The translations under genes were made by a program, and so were the position numbers. This document shows, one piece after another, positions 3,010 to 49,675 of a stretch of DNA of 49,675 nt (its first letter is position 1; every line of letters starts with the position of its first letter). The notes below the pieces were generated by a model. That model made no database searches and was not told the DNA's origin. It saw nothing but the letters and a program-made list of their open reading frames with translations. This DNA comes from Desulfopila aestuarii DSM 18488 (GTDB lineage Bacteria > Desulfobacterota > Desulfobulbia > Desulfobulbales > Desulfocapsaceae): the NCBI GenBank assembly GCA_945863875.1, contig CAMBBS010000033.1:1-49675 (forward strand), given 5' to 3'.

Positions 3010-3297
3010 TCACAGCGCTTGCACATCAACAAAAGGTTCTTCATAGTCAGGCCAACCATCGTCATATGGCCCTACAATCGTCTCAATAATATTTGAGAGA
3101 GACGGGGGAGCCTTTTCCCGCTTCGGCTTGGCCTCCTTATATAAGCCAAGAGGATCAAGTATCTTCTTGATCACTTTCCTCTCATAGATGAAGGTGATAA
3201 TTTTCATCAGGGCACGACAATGAGGGCAAAGAAGTGGGTCCACCTCCCAGACTTTTTTGATACACTCTCGCCAAATCAAAGGTGGCACCTTTTTTGT
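3010..3297 (-). pseudogene. IS91 transposase, C-terminal portion
   Basis: The minus-strand frame reads KVPPLIWRECIKKVWEVDPL, then LCPHCRALMKIITFI and, at the end, YDDGWPDYEEPFVDVQAL followed by TGA. This is the conserved C-terminal zinc segment and tail of IS91 transposases. In intact relatives it follows directly after the part now found at 4337-4582. The approximately 1 kb separating the two carries the ISAzo13-type transposase on the opposite strand, so the IS91 gene appears to have been split by insertion. An almost identical tail, DYEEPIVDVQAL, is found at 8575-8658 on the plus strand. Confidence 0.8.
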
Positions 3298-3376
3298 CTT
3301 GAAACCGCTTAGGGAGTTGGGAAATACTAAAATACCGATTATGATGTTTGGATACTGCAAAAAGGAGGATCTGTGT

Positions 3377-4310
3377 ATGAAGACATCAACTTTGGTTCGG
3401 AATGGAATAGCTCCAGAATTAGTCGGCTTGATTTCACGTTTGGTTGATTTGGTACCCTGGCCTGCAAGGCGGTGTGCGATGGGAGATGTGACACTGGCGC
3501 TACTGGACGGCAAGCATCGTTTAGCTGAGGATGTGTTCGGATGGGGCCGATCTACTGTGGAAGTCGGGATCAAAGAATTCCAAACCGGCTTTTTGTGTGT
3601 AAACGATATATCCGCACGACAGAAACCGAAGGCGGAAGAGAAGAACCCAGCGCTGCTTGCCGAAATCCGCGCTATTGTGGAACCACATTGTGAATCTGAA
3701 TCTCATCTGCGTACAACCTTGCTCTACACAACCATGACTGCTCAAGCAGTATACGACGCTCTTGTCAAAAAGGGATGGTCAGCAGAATCATTGCCAACAG
3801 TGCGCACGATTTCCAACATCCTTATTCGTCATGATTATCGATTGCGCACTGTGGCGAAAACAAAGGTCCAAAAAAAACCGAAGCAACCGACGCAATCTTT
3901 GAAAACGTCTGGCAGATGAACGCTCAGGCAGATACTGATCCAGAAACCATGAGAATCAGCATAGACACAAAGGCAACTGTCACTGTTGGTGAATATTCCA
4001 GAGGCGGCCGCTCGCGTGGCCTAAATGCTGTCGAGGCATTGGATCATGGATATGTGCCCCAAAGAAAAATTGATTCCTGGCGGCATCCTGGAACCGGTTA
4101 CTGGCAGGTCGTTCTTATTTTTTGGCACCAGTTACAAAACCAGCGACTTCCTTTGTCGACGGCCTTTTTCTCTGCTGGGAAGAGAGAAAGCGGGATCTTT
4201 GGGATGTGAAACAGACAGCTTGTCATTAATGTTGATAACAGACCGGAATGCAGCGGACGCCGTACCCAATTCCTGAGGAGGTTGACAGAATTTGCCGATT
4301 TGACATTTCT
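3377..4310 (+). pseudogene. ISAzo13-type transposase, multiply frameshifted
   Basis: The frame starts at ATG 3377 with a strong AAAGGAGGA site at 3361-3369. It reads through ARRCAMGDVTLALLDGKHRL and SLPTVRTISNILIRHDYRLR, then shifts frame near 3890 into DAIFENVWQMNAQADTDPET and ISIDTKATVTVGEYSRGGRS. It shifts again near 4045 into CPKEKLIPGGILEPVTGRSF, and again before VDNRPECSGRRTQFLRRL at about 4230. The D-T-K and VDNxPE motifs are the first two acidic positions of the ISAzo13 DDE domain. The last third, with the catalytic Glu, is missing. At least three frameshifts show it cannot make a transposase. Confidence 0.75.
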
Positions 4311-4336: not shown

Positions 4337-5189
4337 CTAAAACGGTAAATATGTAACTTCTGAATCCCTTACGTCAATTATCTCGTTCTCCGCTACCTTC
4401 TTTTGCTCGCCTTCTTCCTTGAGCTTCTCGGCCTTGCTTCTGTCGCCCCGCATCCGGTTCGAATACCAACCCACATACCTCACCATCTGCGCCAACCGAT
4501 CGGGGATATGTTGCGTGACTGCCGCGATAAATTCCACCGGCGAAAATGTTTGGAAATTGCGTTTGTTGCCGCCGTGGCTCATCTATCGAACGATAGATTA
4601 TCGTCCCGGTCTTCTTGATAAAGTTGAGTTTGGTCAGCGAAAAGGTATTGCGGATTATGTATTGGGCAACATTTTCAGCACCGAGGCGCGGAACATTTCG
4701 GCCAGGGGGCGAATAGCCACCTTTGGCAAGACATAAAAATATCCACTCTCGGTAGGGAGTTCATCCGCCACCAGGGCATGAATATGCGGATGCCATTTGG
4801 CATAGTCTCCGAAGGTCTGAATAGCCAAGGCAATTCCCGGTATCCCTGACTTTTTACCGAGGGTTATCCTGCAAATGGCTACCGACCTGGATAACCTTTT
4901 TTGCATGGCACGAAGGACAAAACCACCGGCCACGGCAACTGAAAGCAAGCAGATACTCATGCTGACAATCCGGACAACGCACCCGGGCGAAGCCCTGATG
5001 AAGGTCGCCACATTCCAGGTATTTTCTTGCTATATGCGAGATTACCGGCCGATAGAATCCGTATTGACGTGCAAAAAGATCGTCATAGCGTTCTTCGAAT
5101 TCGTCGAAGTGTTCATTCAATAACTGCCAAAACGGCGATTCACACGTCTTCCTGCCTCTGTACTCTTCCGCCTCGTCGCTCCAAGGCAT
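4337..5189 (-). pseudogene. IS91 transposase, N-terminal and catalytic portions (frameshifted)
   Basis: Three minus-strand pieces lie in different frames. At 4854-5189 is the zinc-binding N-terminus (RVRCPDCQHEYLLAFSCRGR, then WFCPSCHAKK). Between 4655 and about 4860 is KSGIPGIALAIQTFGDYAKW, then HPHIHALVADE, the His-hydrophobe-His core of Y2/HUH rolling-circle transposases. At 4337-4582 is MSHGGNKRNFQTFSPVEFIA with VRYVGWYSNRMRGD, the usual region after the tyrosine motif. The frames do not join, and sequence is missing between the zinc region and the HUH segment and around the catalytic tyrosines. The gene is dead. Confidence 0.8.
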
Positions 5190-22342: not shown

Positions 22343-22618
22343 AATTTACATTGGTCTATCGAGAAAAACAATGGGATTCGCACAGGAAGACATCGCGTTT
22401 TCAATATGCGCGTCCCTCTGGCTTTTGTGACCGGATACCGGAAAAAAGTGCTGGACGGAAAAGCTGTCGAAATACTTCGGGAATCTTTTGGTGGGATCTG
22501 CCGGAAGTCTGCAGCTGAACTGATCGAGACGAACGGCGCAGAGGACCATGCTTCTCTGCGCCGCTGCGCCGATCTCCTTTATCCGGCACTATGTCGAACA
22601 GCAACAGACACCGGATGA
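22343..22618 (+). pseudogene. tnpA: TnpA (IS200-type Y1 transposase) remnant
   Basis: The frame IRTGRHRVFNMRVPLAFVTG followed by YRKKVLDGKAVEILRESFGG and CRKSAAELIETNGAEDH matches the first half of IS200/IS605 TnpA. The expected HUH sequence (DDHVHLL) and the tyrosine helix are deleted. A different frame at about 22560-22615 then gives APISFIRHYVEQQQTPD, the C-terminal TnpA segment. The internal deletion and frameshift make it non-functional. It faces away from the tnpB remnant, the normal IS605 layout. Confidence 0.7.
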
Positions 22619-22634
22619 ACAGCTTACCCCCTGC

Positions 22635-22658
22635 AGCCCCGACCTGAAGGACCGGGCT
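22635..22658 (+). repeat. Left-end palindrome of the IS605-type relic
   Basis: AGCCC (22635-22639) and GGGCT (22654-22658) form the outer stem, with CCT and AGG near the tip, followed by TTACGGCGC. Subterminal hairpins of this kind are TnpA recognition sites. The boundary of the element here is approximate. From 22680 to 22990 I see no gene or RNA. Confidence 0.4.
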
Positions 22659-22990
22659 TTACGGCGCGTCTTTGGTAAAATGTATTTAAAAGAGCAGGGG
22701 GACAATGTGGAGCAGATATTTCGGAGTATCCCCCGTCTATCTCGGTGTTTCGTTGGTTTGATGCAAGAGTCGTCTGTTGACTTTGGCGTAGCCATCCCTA
22801 TTTTTAGGCAAGGCAAGCTCCAGCATAAGTGACAAATTAATTACATAATCGTACTGATGTTGAGAATAAACACCCCGTTTTGAAGTGATTGGGAGTCGTA
22901 TTGATTTCGGCCTACACGTGGCAACTATTTTAATGCATCCCGGCTTATTTTCCGTTTACCGGGGTTAGATCAGGCGATAAAGGAATTTGA

Positions 22991-23629
22991 ATGTCTATCA
23001 TCACAATTACCAGAGGATCATACAGCCGGGGAAAAGAAGTAGCCGAAAGATTGGCCAAGAAATTGGGCTACGAGTGTATAGCGCGAGATATTCTACTAGA
23101 GGCATCAGAAGAATATAATATCCCCGAGATCAAGCTCATAAGGGCATTACATGATTCACCGAAAGTTCTTGAACGATTTTTTGGCGGTTCGGAGCGCTAT
23201 GTGAAATACTATCGCTCGGCGCTCCTGCAGCATGCCCGCAAGGACAATATCGTCTATCATGGTCTGGCCGGCCATTTCTTTCTCAAAGATATTCCCCATG
23301 TCCTCAAAATCAGAATCAATGCCGATATAAATACTCGGGTGAAGGAGGAAATGGCCAGGGAAAACATCTCTGCCGAGGATGCGCTGTATATTTTAAAGAA
23401 AGATGATGAAGAACGCCGAAAATGGGGTATTCAGGTGCATGGCATGGACCCCTGGGACAGCCGCCTGTACGATCTGGTCATCAATATCTGTACATTGTCG
23501 CTTGAAGATGCGGTCGACCTCATATACGGGGTGCTGCAAAAGCCTACCTTCCAAACAACTCCAGAGTCTCAAGCATTGGTGGAGCGCCTGGCAACCTTGG
23601 CTCAAAAGGAGTCTGCAGCTTACACTTGA
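22991..23629 (+). CDS. Cytidylate kinase-like family protein
   Basis: A 212-aa protein beginning MSIITITRGSYSRGKEVAER, the start of the cytidylate-kinase-like family (Cytidylate_kin2). In this family the loop TRGSYSRGKEVAERLA takes the place of a standard GxxGxGK P-loop. Other landmarks are YECIARDILLEASEEYNI, NIVYHGLAGHFFLKDIPHVL, LKIRINADINTRV and DEERRKWGIQVHGMDPWDSR, the last resembling the LID region. Members are presumed nucleoside-monophosphate or small-molecule kinases; the substrate is not established. An AAAGGAATTTGA region precedes the start. The gene is intact but bracketed on both sides by relics of IS200/IS605-superfamily elements. Confidence 0.75.
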   Translation: MSIITITRGSYSRGKEVAERLAKKLGYECIARDILLEASEEYNIPEIKLIRALHDSPKVLERFFGGSERYVKYYRSALLQHARKDNIVYHGLAGHFFLKDIPHVLKIRINADINTRVKEEMARENISAEDALYILKKDDEERRKWGIQVHGMDPWDSRLYDLVINICTLSLEDAVDLIYGVLQKPTFQTTPESQALVERLATLAQKESAAYT

Positions 23630-23656
23630 TGGACTTATTTTTCCGTAATAGTATAA

Positions 23657-23750
23657 TGGTCAACTACCCTGCCCAGAAGTCGGAGCTTGTGAAAGCAAGT
23701 TGCTCTGTTGACCAGGCACAGCCAGGGCCGCAAGGCTAACGGGCTACGTT
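23657..23750 (+). ncRNA. Omega-RNA (HEARO-like) candidate of an IscB element
   Basis: TGGTCAAC (23657-23664) and GTTGACCA (23707-23714) form a perfect 8-bp outer stem. Inside, CTTG-TGAAAG-CAAG makes a hairpin. Downstream, GCC-GCAA-GGC (23727-23736) is a tetraloop hairpin, and GGGC at 23741-23744 can pair with GCCC at 23671-23674 as a pseudoknot. Position just upstream of the iscB remnant is where IscB guide RNAs lie. The family assignment rests on structure and context; a covariance search would be decisive. Confidence 0.55.
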
Positions 23751-23762
23751 AAGAAAGAAGAG

Positions 23763-24287
23763 AGAGGCACTCTGGAATGCTCCACCGGTTCCAGGCTCTG
23801 CGACGAGTGGTTAAACAGGTTGCAGGCATTCGGCCTGCAGGTTTCCTTCTGGGCCGGAGGAAGAACCAAGTATAACCGGACGAACCAAAGCTACGGAAAA
23901 TCCCATTGGCTTGATGCCGTTTATGTCGGTGCAACAGGCGGGCGTGTCCATATTCCGCCGGGACTGCAACCTCTCCATGTTTCTGCCGCTGGCAGAGGAT
24001 CACGGCAGATGTGCCGGGTGGATACATATGGTTTTCCTCGAACGTCAGCGAAATCAATAACAGTTGTCAAGGGATGTAAAACCGGGGATCTGGTCAAGGC
24101 CCTGGTCAACATAGGCAAAAAGCCCGGGACGCATGCTGGCAGGGCGTCTGTCCGAAAGTCCGGCAGTTTCAATATCAAGGCAGAAGCGGGTACAATACAC
24201 GGGATTGCATGGAAACATTGCTCTCTTTTGCAGCGTGCCGATGGATACAACTACTACAGAGGAGACAGCGTTTCCTCCTCCACCTGA
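23763..24287 (+). pseudogene. iscB: IscB C-terminal fragment (N-terminus, HNH and RuvC I-II deleted)
   Basis: The frame reads LCDEWLNRLQAFGLQVSFWA, then GGRTKYNRTNQSYGKSHWLD, corresponding to the RuvC-III region with its H-x-x-D. It continues into SAAGRGSRQMCRVDTYGFPR, KTGDLVKALVNIGKKPG, AGRASVRKSGSFNIKAEA and HGIAWKHCSLLQRADGYNY, the conserved C-terminal domain of IscB, the ancestor of Cas9. The PLMP domain, the first RuvC segments, the bridge helix and the HNH nuclease should lie between the omega-RNA and this point but are absent. The gap between the RNA candidate and this fragment is only about 20 bp. It cannot cleave DNA but might still bind RNA. Confidence 0.8.
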
Positions 24288-24308
24288 AGGAAGAGGTAGC
24301 CACGCTGT
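24265..24308 (+). repeat. Right-end palindrome of the IscB element
   Basis: ACAGCGT (24265-24271) and ACGCTGT (24302-24308) form a perfect 7-bp outer stem enclosing CCTC/GAGG and CCT/AGG stems. Nested imperfect palindromes at the ends are the TnpA sites of IS200/IS605-superfamily elements. The macro-domain start codon follows 8 bp later. Confidence 0.55.
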
Positions 24309-24316
24309 AATCTTAG

Positions 24317-24772
24317 ATGAAGACCGTAGAAGGAGATTTACTCACCCTGGCCCTGGAGGGTCAATTTGATGTCATTGTCCATGGCTGCAATTGTTTCTGC
24401 ACCATGGGCGCCGGGATAGCCCGAGCCATTCAGGAGGAATTCCCCGAGGCATATGCCGCGGATCTGGTCACCATCAAAGGCGACAGGAACAAGTTGGGGG
24501 ATTTCAGTTTCGCCACGGTCAAACGCGATGGCCGTGAAATTACCATCGTCAACGGTTACACCCAGTTCCATTTCCATGGGGATTCGGTTCTGGTCGATTA
24601 CCATGCGGTGCAAAACCTTTGCAAAAAAATTCGTGGCCTGTTTTCCGGCAAGCGCATCGGCTACCCGAAGATTGGTGGTGGCCTTGCCGGGGGAGACTGG
24701 CAAAAGATCGCCAGCATTATTGACCAGGAACTGGCTGGAGAAGACCACACCCTGGTCATTTATGTGCCATGA
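24317..24772 (+). CDS. Macro-domain protein (ADP-ribose-binding, Poa1-like)
   Basis: A 151-aa stand-alone macro domain. MKTVEGDLLTLALEGQFDVI followed by VHGCNCFCTMGAGIARAIQE is the ADP-ribose-binding start. TIVNGYTQFHFHG and IGYPKIGGGLAGGDW form the second loop with the G-G-G-L-A-G-G phosphate-binding stretch. Such proteins hydrolyse ADP-ribose-1''-phosphate or remove ADP-ribose from proteins or nucleic acids. The ATG lies 8 bp after the IscB element's terminal palindrome and has no Shine-Dalgarno, so the transposon seems to have replaced its 5' region. It is convergent with the next gene, with 15 bp between. Confidence 0.85.
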   Translation: MKTVEGDLLTLALEGQFDVIVHGCNCFCTMGAGIARAIQEEFPEAYAADLVTIKGDRNKLGDFSFATVKRDGREITIVNGYTQFHFHGDSVLVDYHAVQNLCKKIRGLFSGKRIGYPKIGGGLAGGDWQKIASIIDQELAGEDHTLVIYVP

Positions 24773-47751: not shown

Positions 47752-49675
47752 CTACCCATCCTCTAGCAGAGCAAAGCCCATGCACATAAACTGAAGCGCT
47801 GCGTACCCCTGCCAAAGAATTTGATGCCCTGGGGGCGGGTCGTTTTTGCGTCCGAGATATCCTCCGATCTTGGCCACAAGCTGCACAGCTTCACCAAGTA
47901 ACATGGGCGGTTTTATACTTTTTTTTAGCGTAGGCCTGCAAGGTTCTTAATTCTATATCCGAAAACAGAACTTCAGCCGGCAATTCCGGAACTTCTCTAC
48001 CCAGCAGGGTCATCAGCATGATCCGCCAGGCGATGACAAGATTGATGGCAATCACCCGGCGCAATCGTTCAGCGGTTTTGTGAGCCAGATCTTCGATACG
48101 GCAACCTGATTTAAGCACACGGTGCCAGTCTTCGATACGCCACTGCAGAACGTACCAGCGCAAGCACTGTTCGGCATTTGCAGCCGAGGTGATTACGATG
48201 ATTGTCAACAAAAACCACTCTACGGCTTTGGTATCGGCAGGCGGGTTTTCTTCCACGGCATGAACCAGCCAAAGGTCAATGGGCTCCTTGTCGCCGAGGT
48301 AGTGCGCCGGACGAAGTTGGATACGAAGAAAACGTACTGCGATATCTGCCAGGCGCCCTGGCCTTGCGGACCGGGCCTTTTGCTTGCTTTTCTTCAGCCG
48401 GGCGCTTTGGCGGGGGATGTTGATTTGACCCCGACTCGCAACGGGTGCCTGACGGGCTGTCTCGAATAGTTTGAAAGGTTCTTCCGAAGTGTTCCGGTTA
48501 TGCCTGGCGCGTACCAACAGTTCGACGCAACGGTTTCGGCGTTGTTCATCGAGCAGCTCAAAAAAATCCGCTTCCGGCTCACAGACGTGAACCAGCCTTG
48601 TCCGAGGCAACCTGGCAGACAGTGCGGCCAAGTCGCGGTGATGTTCCAGCCAGACAAAGGTCTTTTTCTCTTCGATAGGGATGACATGGGCCGAACGTTT
48701 TTCCTCTTCAGATTTGCTTTGGGGAGCGATACATTGGGCATGAACAACCCCCAAAGGCAGCCCGTTGGGAGCCACTGCCAACGTGGAGTGCAGATACAGC
48801 CCCCGGCTCTTGGCCCCGGTCTGGTTGCTTCCAAGCTCCCCCGGGCCGCTGCATTTCGACAGGTTGGTGTAATTTAAATCACTGCCGTCCTGAATGCAGA
48901 GCACGGTTTTTGTCCCATCATCCGCCCCACGGTACGTTCACGGTGGGGGGCCAGGATGTTGGGCATGCTCACCGCCGAGTCTTCCGGCTGATCTATCATG
49001 CGATAATAGGCTTTGACTTTCGGCCAATCGCCCTTTGCCACTCCGCTAAAGGTGCGACTTGGAACTCGTTTTCCGTCCAGTGCTCATTCTCCAATCCCTG
49101 GACCGGTGTTAATGCACCGAGACCGGCATCGGGGGATAAGCCTATTCGTTTCCTGAACTCTTTTTCAAGCGGGTAAACATAAATCGCCTTTATGCTCAGT
49201 GTCGCCTGATTAAAACGATCCTGTCTTCCGCGTCCCTTGGTGGCGCCAATATGAATCCAATTTGCGGCCCGATAGCACGTCCCCGAATAGTGCTGGGTGT
49301 CCACAAAACTCTCTACCAGGTATGGCCGGTAGCCGTACTGCTGCTCAAAATCGGTTGGCAAAGAAGCAATGCTCATCCCCAAAACCTTGGATGCGAGATT
49401 GCCACATTGCACACTGGGGCGAATCAGAAAGCGGCTCATTGCCACCACGGCATGTAAATGAGCCTGACGCTGCTCACCATTCCACCCGATCCACTTATCC
49501 CGGTTGGCCAGTTGCAAGGCCGCTGCACCAAATCCAAAACCGCCGAGCCAGCCATGTTCTGAGGCGATGAGATAGCGCAACTGCCGTCCCACCAAAGGCC
49601 CTGCACCTTGAGGATGTTCGCCAATCATCCGTTCATTCCAGATCCGCATGTGATCAGGGTTTGTCACCAATATCA
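47752..49675 (-). pseudogene. Transposase with DruA-like (DUF4338) N-terminus and IS4/Tn5-type DDE domain, frameshifted, partial
   Basis: The minus-strand frame enters from beyond the window. It reads WNERMIGEHPQGAGPLVGRQ, RYLIASEHGWLGGFGFGAAA, SRFLIRPSVQCGNLASKVLG and YRPYLVESFVDTQHYSGTCY, the DUF4338/DruA-like domain. Near 49070 a frame change leads to TFSGVAKGDWPKVKAYYRMI, and near 48920 a 1-nt loss leads to VLCIQDGSDLNYTNLSKCSG, the first DDE aspartate of Tn5-like transposases. WYVLQWRIEDWHRVLKSG is the YREK signature. Near 47900 a third change leads to AKIGGYLGRKNDPPPGHQIL and the true C-terminus at 47752. Three frame changes make it a dead copy. Confidence 0.8.

Follow-up and report, generated by a model that had tools for sequence, protein, structure and literature searches.

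An internally deleted IscB/HEARO element in Desulfopila aestuarii, one of a family of shortened copies

Between a cytidylate-kinase-like gene and a macro-domain gene of Desulfopila aestuarii DSM 18488 stands the shell of an IscB element, in which the first part of an omega-RNA runs directly into the end of the nuclease gene. The question is whether such a shell is a passive mini-element or an RNA-binding derivative, the two possibilities raised in an earlier note on this DNA, or simply a dying copy. The locus was analysed within a stretch of 49,675 nucleotides of contig CAMBBS010000033.1 (hereafter “the window”; positions are counted from its first letter), and compared with the other copies in the same genome and with relatives elsewhere. 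We consider it very probable that the window copy is a case of ordinary decay, an IscB element that lost its middle between 11-bp repeats and is now dead or nearly immobile; what can be read off directly are its two ends and its target, the repeat, the missing stretch and a junction that was found nowhere else.

Table 1. Features of the window copy and of its neighbours (positions in the window).
Feature	Positions	Strand	Remark
Cytidylate-kinase-like gene, left flank	22991..23629	+	PF13189
Whole IscB/HEARO insertion, internally deleted, 658 bp	23659..24316	+	Ends align with other copies
Retained 5' part of omega-RNA (HEARO)	23659..23826	+	Cut within 3' hairpin
Left-end hairpin region	23667..23683	+	Mutated tip; the family has CCTGAAGG
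Deletion junction, remaining copy of 11-bp direct repeat	23816..23826	+	One substitution relative to full copy
RuvC-III and C-terminal (TID) coding remnant	23820..24287	+	Open from TTG; no ATG before RuvC-III
Right-end hairpin (CCTCCTCCACCTGAAGGAAGAGG)	24274..24296	+	As in most other copies
ATGA at right junction	24317..24320	+	Likely insertion target/TAM; also start codon of next gene
Macro-domain gene, start codon abutted by element	24317..24772	+	PF01661; same start in genus-mates

Extent, junction and site of the window copy

The left end of the window copy reads GTCAAC and its right end TTAG, followed immediately by ATGA, in line with the other copies (25 left and 25 right ends were compared), which corrects the span of 23657-24308 given in the earlier note to 23659-24316. 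With precise ends common to the family and flanks that differ from copy to copy, this is an IscB/HEARO element, and it is gutted as had been described: both ends are present and the middle is gone.

The loss could be measured against an intact copy in the same genome (C4:61379-62971), which has a complete omega-RNA (154.7 bits) and encodes an IscB of 435 aa, in which Pfam recognises RRXRR and HNH domains and which scores 446 bits for IscB in NCBIfam. Mapped on this copy, the window copy keeps positions 62-230 and 1160-1668, and 940 bp are absent; the comparison bears out the claim that PLMP, RuvC-I, RuvC-II, the bridge helix and HNH are all missing, domain names which, apart from RRXRR and HNH (from Pfam), are those that we presume to apply. 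The DNA of the window element matches many places in its own genome, often in two pieces, one covering about 30-197 of the query and the other about 187-681, and the overlap of 11 bases between the pieces marks the junction. The corresponding breakpoints in the intact copy are two perfect copies of CAGGTTGAAGG (11/11), the first within the 3' hairpin of the omega-RNA and the second just before RuvC-III; the junction (23816-23826) sits inside that hairpin, and the coding part does not begin about 20 bp after the RNA, as the earlier note had it. Among 5000 random pairs of breakpoints, exact microhomology averaged 0.69, reaching at least 6 in 11 pairs and at least 9 in none. The 20 junctions listed from the 22 deletion events of the family show alignment overlaps of at least 4 bases in 14 cases, of 2 bases in one and of none in five; of the overlaps of at least 4 bases, two match the C4 copy exactly (the window copy and one of C5) and twelve contain mismatches to it (for example 7/10 or 6/10), since the C4 copy is not the parent of these twelve.

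The last base of the insertion is followed at once by the start codon of the macro-domain gene. Four genus-mates align with this gene from base 1, and in two others the alignment starts at bases 26 and 35; in six same-genus genomes the gene is present with no element before it (one has a run of N upstream). A clean empty site was looked for among the genus-mates and rejected: the macro gene stands there without an element, but the upstream sequence is dissimilar, and the site is therefore not strictly an empty one.

Other traces of mobile DNA occur in the window. What is left of a Y1 transposase gene of IS200-like type (22397-22552) lies about 1 kb to the left of the IscB element and is followed by a hairpin at about 22638-22658 (22397-22680 overall), which resembles both the hairpins 3' of the Y1 gene in loci L053-L056 and the left-end hairpin of IscB. 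Broken transposase-like reading frames are found in pieces at 3010-3573 and 4337-5189, presumably IS91-like, and at the end of the window (47891-49670), where we take them to be of transposase type.

On the reading that we prefer, a complete or already shortened IscB element would have inserted in front of the ATGA of the macro-domain gene, at its border with the upstream region, and the stretch between the two repeats would have been lost by slippage or by short-repeat recombination, probably after the insertion. The truncated RNA would be unable to guide, the coding remnant would go untranslated, and the damage to its left hairpin would leave the copy with little or no mobility; those copies that have both ends were presumably mobilised by a putative Y1-type transposase acting in trans. 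Against decay speak the open frame of the window copy, its intact right end and the slight decay of the RNA part that was kept, and a single occurrence cannot prove that the window copy stayed put after its deletion.

Copies in the genome, their ends and their targets

The window copy is one of 29 elements in a burst within this genome, and deleted copies outnumber the single one verified as intact. Chaining of BLAST pieces gave 34 fragments, and five pairs at contig ends were merged over identical overlaps of 142-163 columns (L031-L039, L040-L043, L042-L024, L044-L023, and L034 with L045, L034 fitting L047 equally well). A complete IscB was verified in one element of the 29, that of C4; the C77 element, a possible second case, runs off its contig after 154 codons. 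We counted 22 distinct internal deletion events over the 29 elements. The omega-RNA span is whole in 20 of them and cut in five (the window copy, C18, C72, C53+55 and C5), and by our count the left part is absent from four (C87, the second C29 copy, C24 and C12).

Several deletions are common to loci with different left flanks, namely one of 108 bp (12/29 elements), one of 270 bp (8/29) and one of 174 bp (6/29); further deletions of 240 and 116 bp are repeated in three elements each, and those of 180, 312 and 177 bp in two each, while C18 and C72 have in common a deletion that also cuts the omega-RNA, with left breakpoints in its 3' hairpin. Deletions within the reading frame that occur in at least two elements (108, 270, 174, 240, 180, 312 and 116 bp) keep the frame in 6/7 cases, against 2/11 for those seen once (Fisher exact p 0.013), in a post hoc test on small numbers that excludes the four events touching the omega-RNA, the window's included. 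Translation gives five open shortened IscBs that end at the natural stop (285, 309, 309, 340 and 399 aa); L026 encodes one more, of 287 aa, which reaches that stop through a changed frame. A 6-bp loss seems to be common to the 270- and 174-bp deletions. The 108- and 270-bp deletions occur together, each alone, or not at all, combinations that are not tree-like and therefore point to recombination or gene conversion between copies, or to recurrent deletion at the same short repeats; for this reason common junctions are no proof of descent. That junctions recur at different loci nevertheless means that deleted derivatives of this family evidently spread. Mixes of deletion markers of this non-tree-like kind were seen in L021, L023, L025, L027 and other loci of the genome.

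The foremost alternative to decay is that the window copy is a passive but mobile mini-element, for which two ends would suffice and a transposase would act in trans, giving a stable non-autonomous form; we regard this as unlikely. Deletions common to several loci favour it, including the one that cuts the omega-RNA of both C18 and C72, although common junctions could in part reflect recurrent deletion at the same short repeats. Eight other deletions have one junction at two or more sites; the window junction (230/1160) is found in 1/29 elements of the genome, and its exact pattern gave 0 matches in genome_contigs and viral_contigs, both of which may leave out the genome itself. The earlier note had made the same junction elsewhere, together with transcription, its test, and by the first of these two measures the result is decay. 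Its passive mini-element holds in so far as the genome has deleted copies with common junctions; it does not fit a window copy with a unique junction, a cut RNA and a damaged left hairpin.

The terminal palindromes, which had seemed to be kept, were so at one end. The right end is intact, as a mini-element would need, and its hairpin is like that of other copies; the tip of the left hairpin has one substitution and a one-base deletion, and its DNA fold, predicted at -0.40 kcal/mol, is tied for the weakest of the 25 left ends. The hairpin core CCTGAAGG is found in 18/25 left and 22/25 right ends. The genome has 25 Y1_Tnp matches. A BLAST comparison of eight Y1 loci with the IscB element yielded nothing beyond matches of 11-17 bases (E 0.036 or worse), save for the IscB copy in L042. 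In the IS200-like loci L053-L056, a hairpin like that of the IscB left end follows the Y1 gene on its 3' side, with CCTGAAGG exact in L056 and variants in L053, L054 and L055. This likeness would argue for movement of a mini-element in trans; against it, the outer ends of these loci differ from IscB ends, hairpin aside.

ATGA (or GTGA) at the right junction is a feature of HEARO elements. Here the junction reads ATGA in 23/25, GTGA in 1/25 and TTGA in 1/25 (27 loci were lined up, of which L038 and L048, both without a right end, are left out); the 25 left ends each have a different flank and begin with GTCAAC or a close variant. The junction codon opens a reading frame of at least 50 codons in 21/25 and of at least 100 codons in 18/25, compared with 162 and 88, respectively, of the 440 ATGA sites on both strands of the window. 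Where both flanks were present (20 elements), 17 have a frame of at least 50 codons at the junction, and in 13/20 the junction codon is also the first ATG after an in-frame stop, against 64/440 in the control (Fisher 9e-7); this test was devised post hoc, and the preference is overstated because the control contains ATGA inside genes, where insertion is counter-selected. The joined left flank of the window element is open and has two upstream ATGs, which keeps this element out of the 13. At loci L021-L051 of the genome and at window position 24317, IscB elements stand directly before ATGA starts with the omega-RNA oriented towards the gene, and several relatives (L091, L093, L094, L101, L104 and L123), judged by eye, look alike in this placement. 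For TnpB, the flank serves as guide and the junction motif as TAM (PMC11870625), and HEARO RNAs have a 5' spacer (PMC9755519); by analogy, we presume that ATGA is the TAM and the left flank the guide.

What remains of the guide RNA and of the nuclease

No Rfam family matched the whole window at gathering thresholds. A permissive search over 23400-24500 returned HEARO (RF02033) as its sole match, at 23659-23894 with 66 bits and E 7.5e-13, the weakest of 23 matches in the genome, the best of which has 154.7 bits. The covariance model proposed in the earlier note thus did find its target, at a score below the gathering score of 83; the E-value makes homology to HEARO sure and the window copy a partial one. 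The omega-RNA-like structure that the note had described is there, with the outer GTCAAC/GTTGAC stem and two inner hairpins at the left end of the element, as in HEARO RNAs, from which it differs in being cut in the 3' hairpin. The full omega-RNA has 66 pairs; 33 of them are retained with both sides, the 3' side is gone from the other 33, and the window copy is without the 3' hairpin and closing stem of a complete structure. Standard pairs make up 28/33 of those kept, about as in the full copy (29/33), and the kept RNA part is therefore little decayed, with mutations of its own in the 5' domain. The covariance match runs on into RuvC-III sequence, with many non-standard pairs there. Folding of the window RNA does not surpass that of shuffled sequences (z -0.11), and the full copy has no more than a modest advantage (z -1.29).

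Any shortening of the long 3' hairpin of the OrufIscB RNA led to a loss of function (PMC13180657). Judged by position, this hairpin probably corresponds to the one cut in the window copy, whose truncated RNA should not work as a guide. The same source describes an OrufIscB RNA artificially split in this hairpin, in which a 35-nt RNA supplied in trans restored up to 20% activity; the window copy is broken within the 3' hairpin, and C18 and C72 have their left breakpoints there. One could accordingly picture a split omega-RNA, in which the 5' two thirds from the window copy and a 3' part from another copy would join in trans on intact IscB and guide it to the element's own empty site. We think this very improbable: the 5' domain of the window copy is mutated, and special sparing of the omega-RNA from deletion was ruled out, as 4/22 events touch it against 3.87 expected under size-matched random placement.

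Compensatory changes were also considered as proof of working omega-RNAs and set aside, the evidence being mixed. In 20 complete omega-RNAs, the covariation score and the cells changed on both sides were each reached by 6/500 shuffles; the number of pairs changed on both sides was four, reached by 36/500 shuffles, and one of six slid versions also had four, with a lower score. Since the rows are related, we draw nothing from this test.

A misjoining of two copies at the repeat during assembly is scarcely to be expected either; the assembly is a draft of 93 contigs with many copies at contig ends, yet a repeat of 11 bp is shorter than the words that assemblers usually employ.

Downstream of the junction, the RuvC-III and C-terminal part recognised in the earlier note is indeed derived from IscB (NF040563; RRXRR PF14239 with HNH): the remnant matches NF040563 at profile positions 275-314 of 314 only, with 30 bits against a cut-off of 175. 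It gave no match in a Pfam search and 0 matches in a PDB search, and the window copy has not the PLMP, split RuvC, bridge helix and HNH that make up an IscB nuclease. The frame is stop-free over 155 codons, the first possible start being TTG at 23820. From BLAST-projected alignments across 29 elements, dN/dS is 0.93 for RuvC-III/TID (full-copy coordinates 1161-1629; bootstrap 0.67-1.31) and 0.49 (0.32-0.79), about 0.47-0.49, for the N-terminal part (327-794); C-terminal values are 0.89 in nine open-ORF copies and 0.98 in 14 disrupted ones, a grouping of our own. The RuvC-III/TID region evolves near-neutrally across the family in this genome, and these values show no sign that selection maintains the retained protein part. 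An RNA-binding derivative, or any small RNA- or TAM-binding protein under selection, is for all its open frame barely conceivable with no ATG before RuvC-III and with dN/dS so near one in all copies and in the open-ORF copies alike.

Relatives and the meaning of the deletion series

Among 57 genomes searched (the genome itself and 56 relatives, 14 of the same genus), HEARO at E 0.001 or better was found in the genome itself and in one same-family genome only, and in none of the 14 genus-mates, under stricter filters that weak copies may escape. The lone HEARO of the same-family genome (G031:C69:22385-22596; L085, L060) has no IscB among the reading frames listed around it. Six peptide patterns yielded 65 relatives of the intact IscB, 32 of them cyanobacterial by title and the rest scattered; one from a deltaproteobacterial MAG (L126) matches the intact IscB at 64% over residues 1-291. 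In Scytonema NIES-4073 and Microseira wollei, which have 61 HEARO matches each, complete IscBs are fewer than HEAROs among the matches listed, from which reduced copies seem a common state in such genomes. Of 30 HEARO-centred loci from four genomes, 16 have no match to the IscB query within flanks of up to about 1.5 kb. At L164 (Iningainema), IscB residues 1-72 and 269-425 lie about ten bases apart, which makes this an independent internal deletion.

IsrB proteins are IscB relatives without HNH that retain PLMP, RuvC and the bridge helix; the window copy is likewise a shortened IscB, but is also without the gene start. The high-copy HEARO genomes of Scytonema NIES-4073 and Microseira wollei resemble that of D. 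aestuarii in having the coding part reduced or absent, whereas here a ladder of 22 internal deletions stands beside an intact copy in one genome. No description of such a series was found in literature titles and abstracts, a weak negative, since most subscription papers lie outside that coverage.

A wider reading, which we hold to be rather doubtful, is that IscB was shortened while spreading: mostly frame-keeping deletions would have been carried to new sites, and forms of 285-399 aa without the bridge helix, HNH and/or parts of RuvC, and with the omega-RNA kept, would still aid their own spread or stay. The window copy would then be an end stage, its omega-RNA split in the 3' hairpin and at most working in trans.

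The interest lies in the family rather than in the window copy; almost every copy in the genome is shortened. The family amounts to a series of deletions made by nature in a small RNA-guided nuclease, with an intact copy beside them, and a comparison of its common and unique junctions might show which regions of IscB and the omega-RNA can be lost without stopping the spread. A second point open to test is the insertion before start codons, in which the left flank would be the guide and ATGA the TAM.
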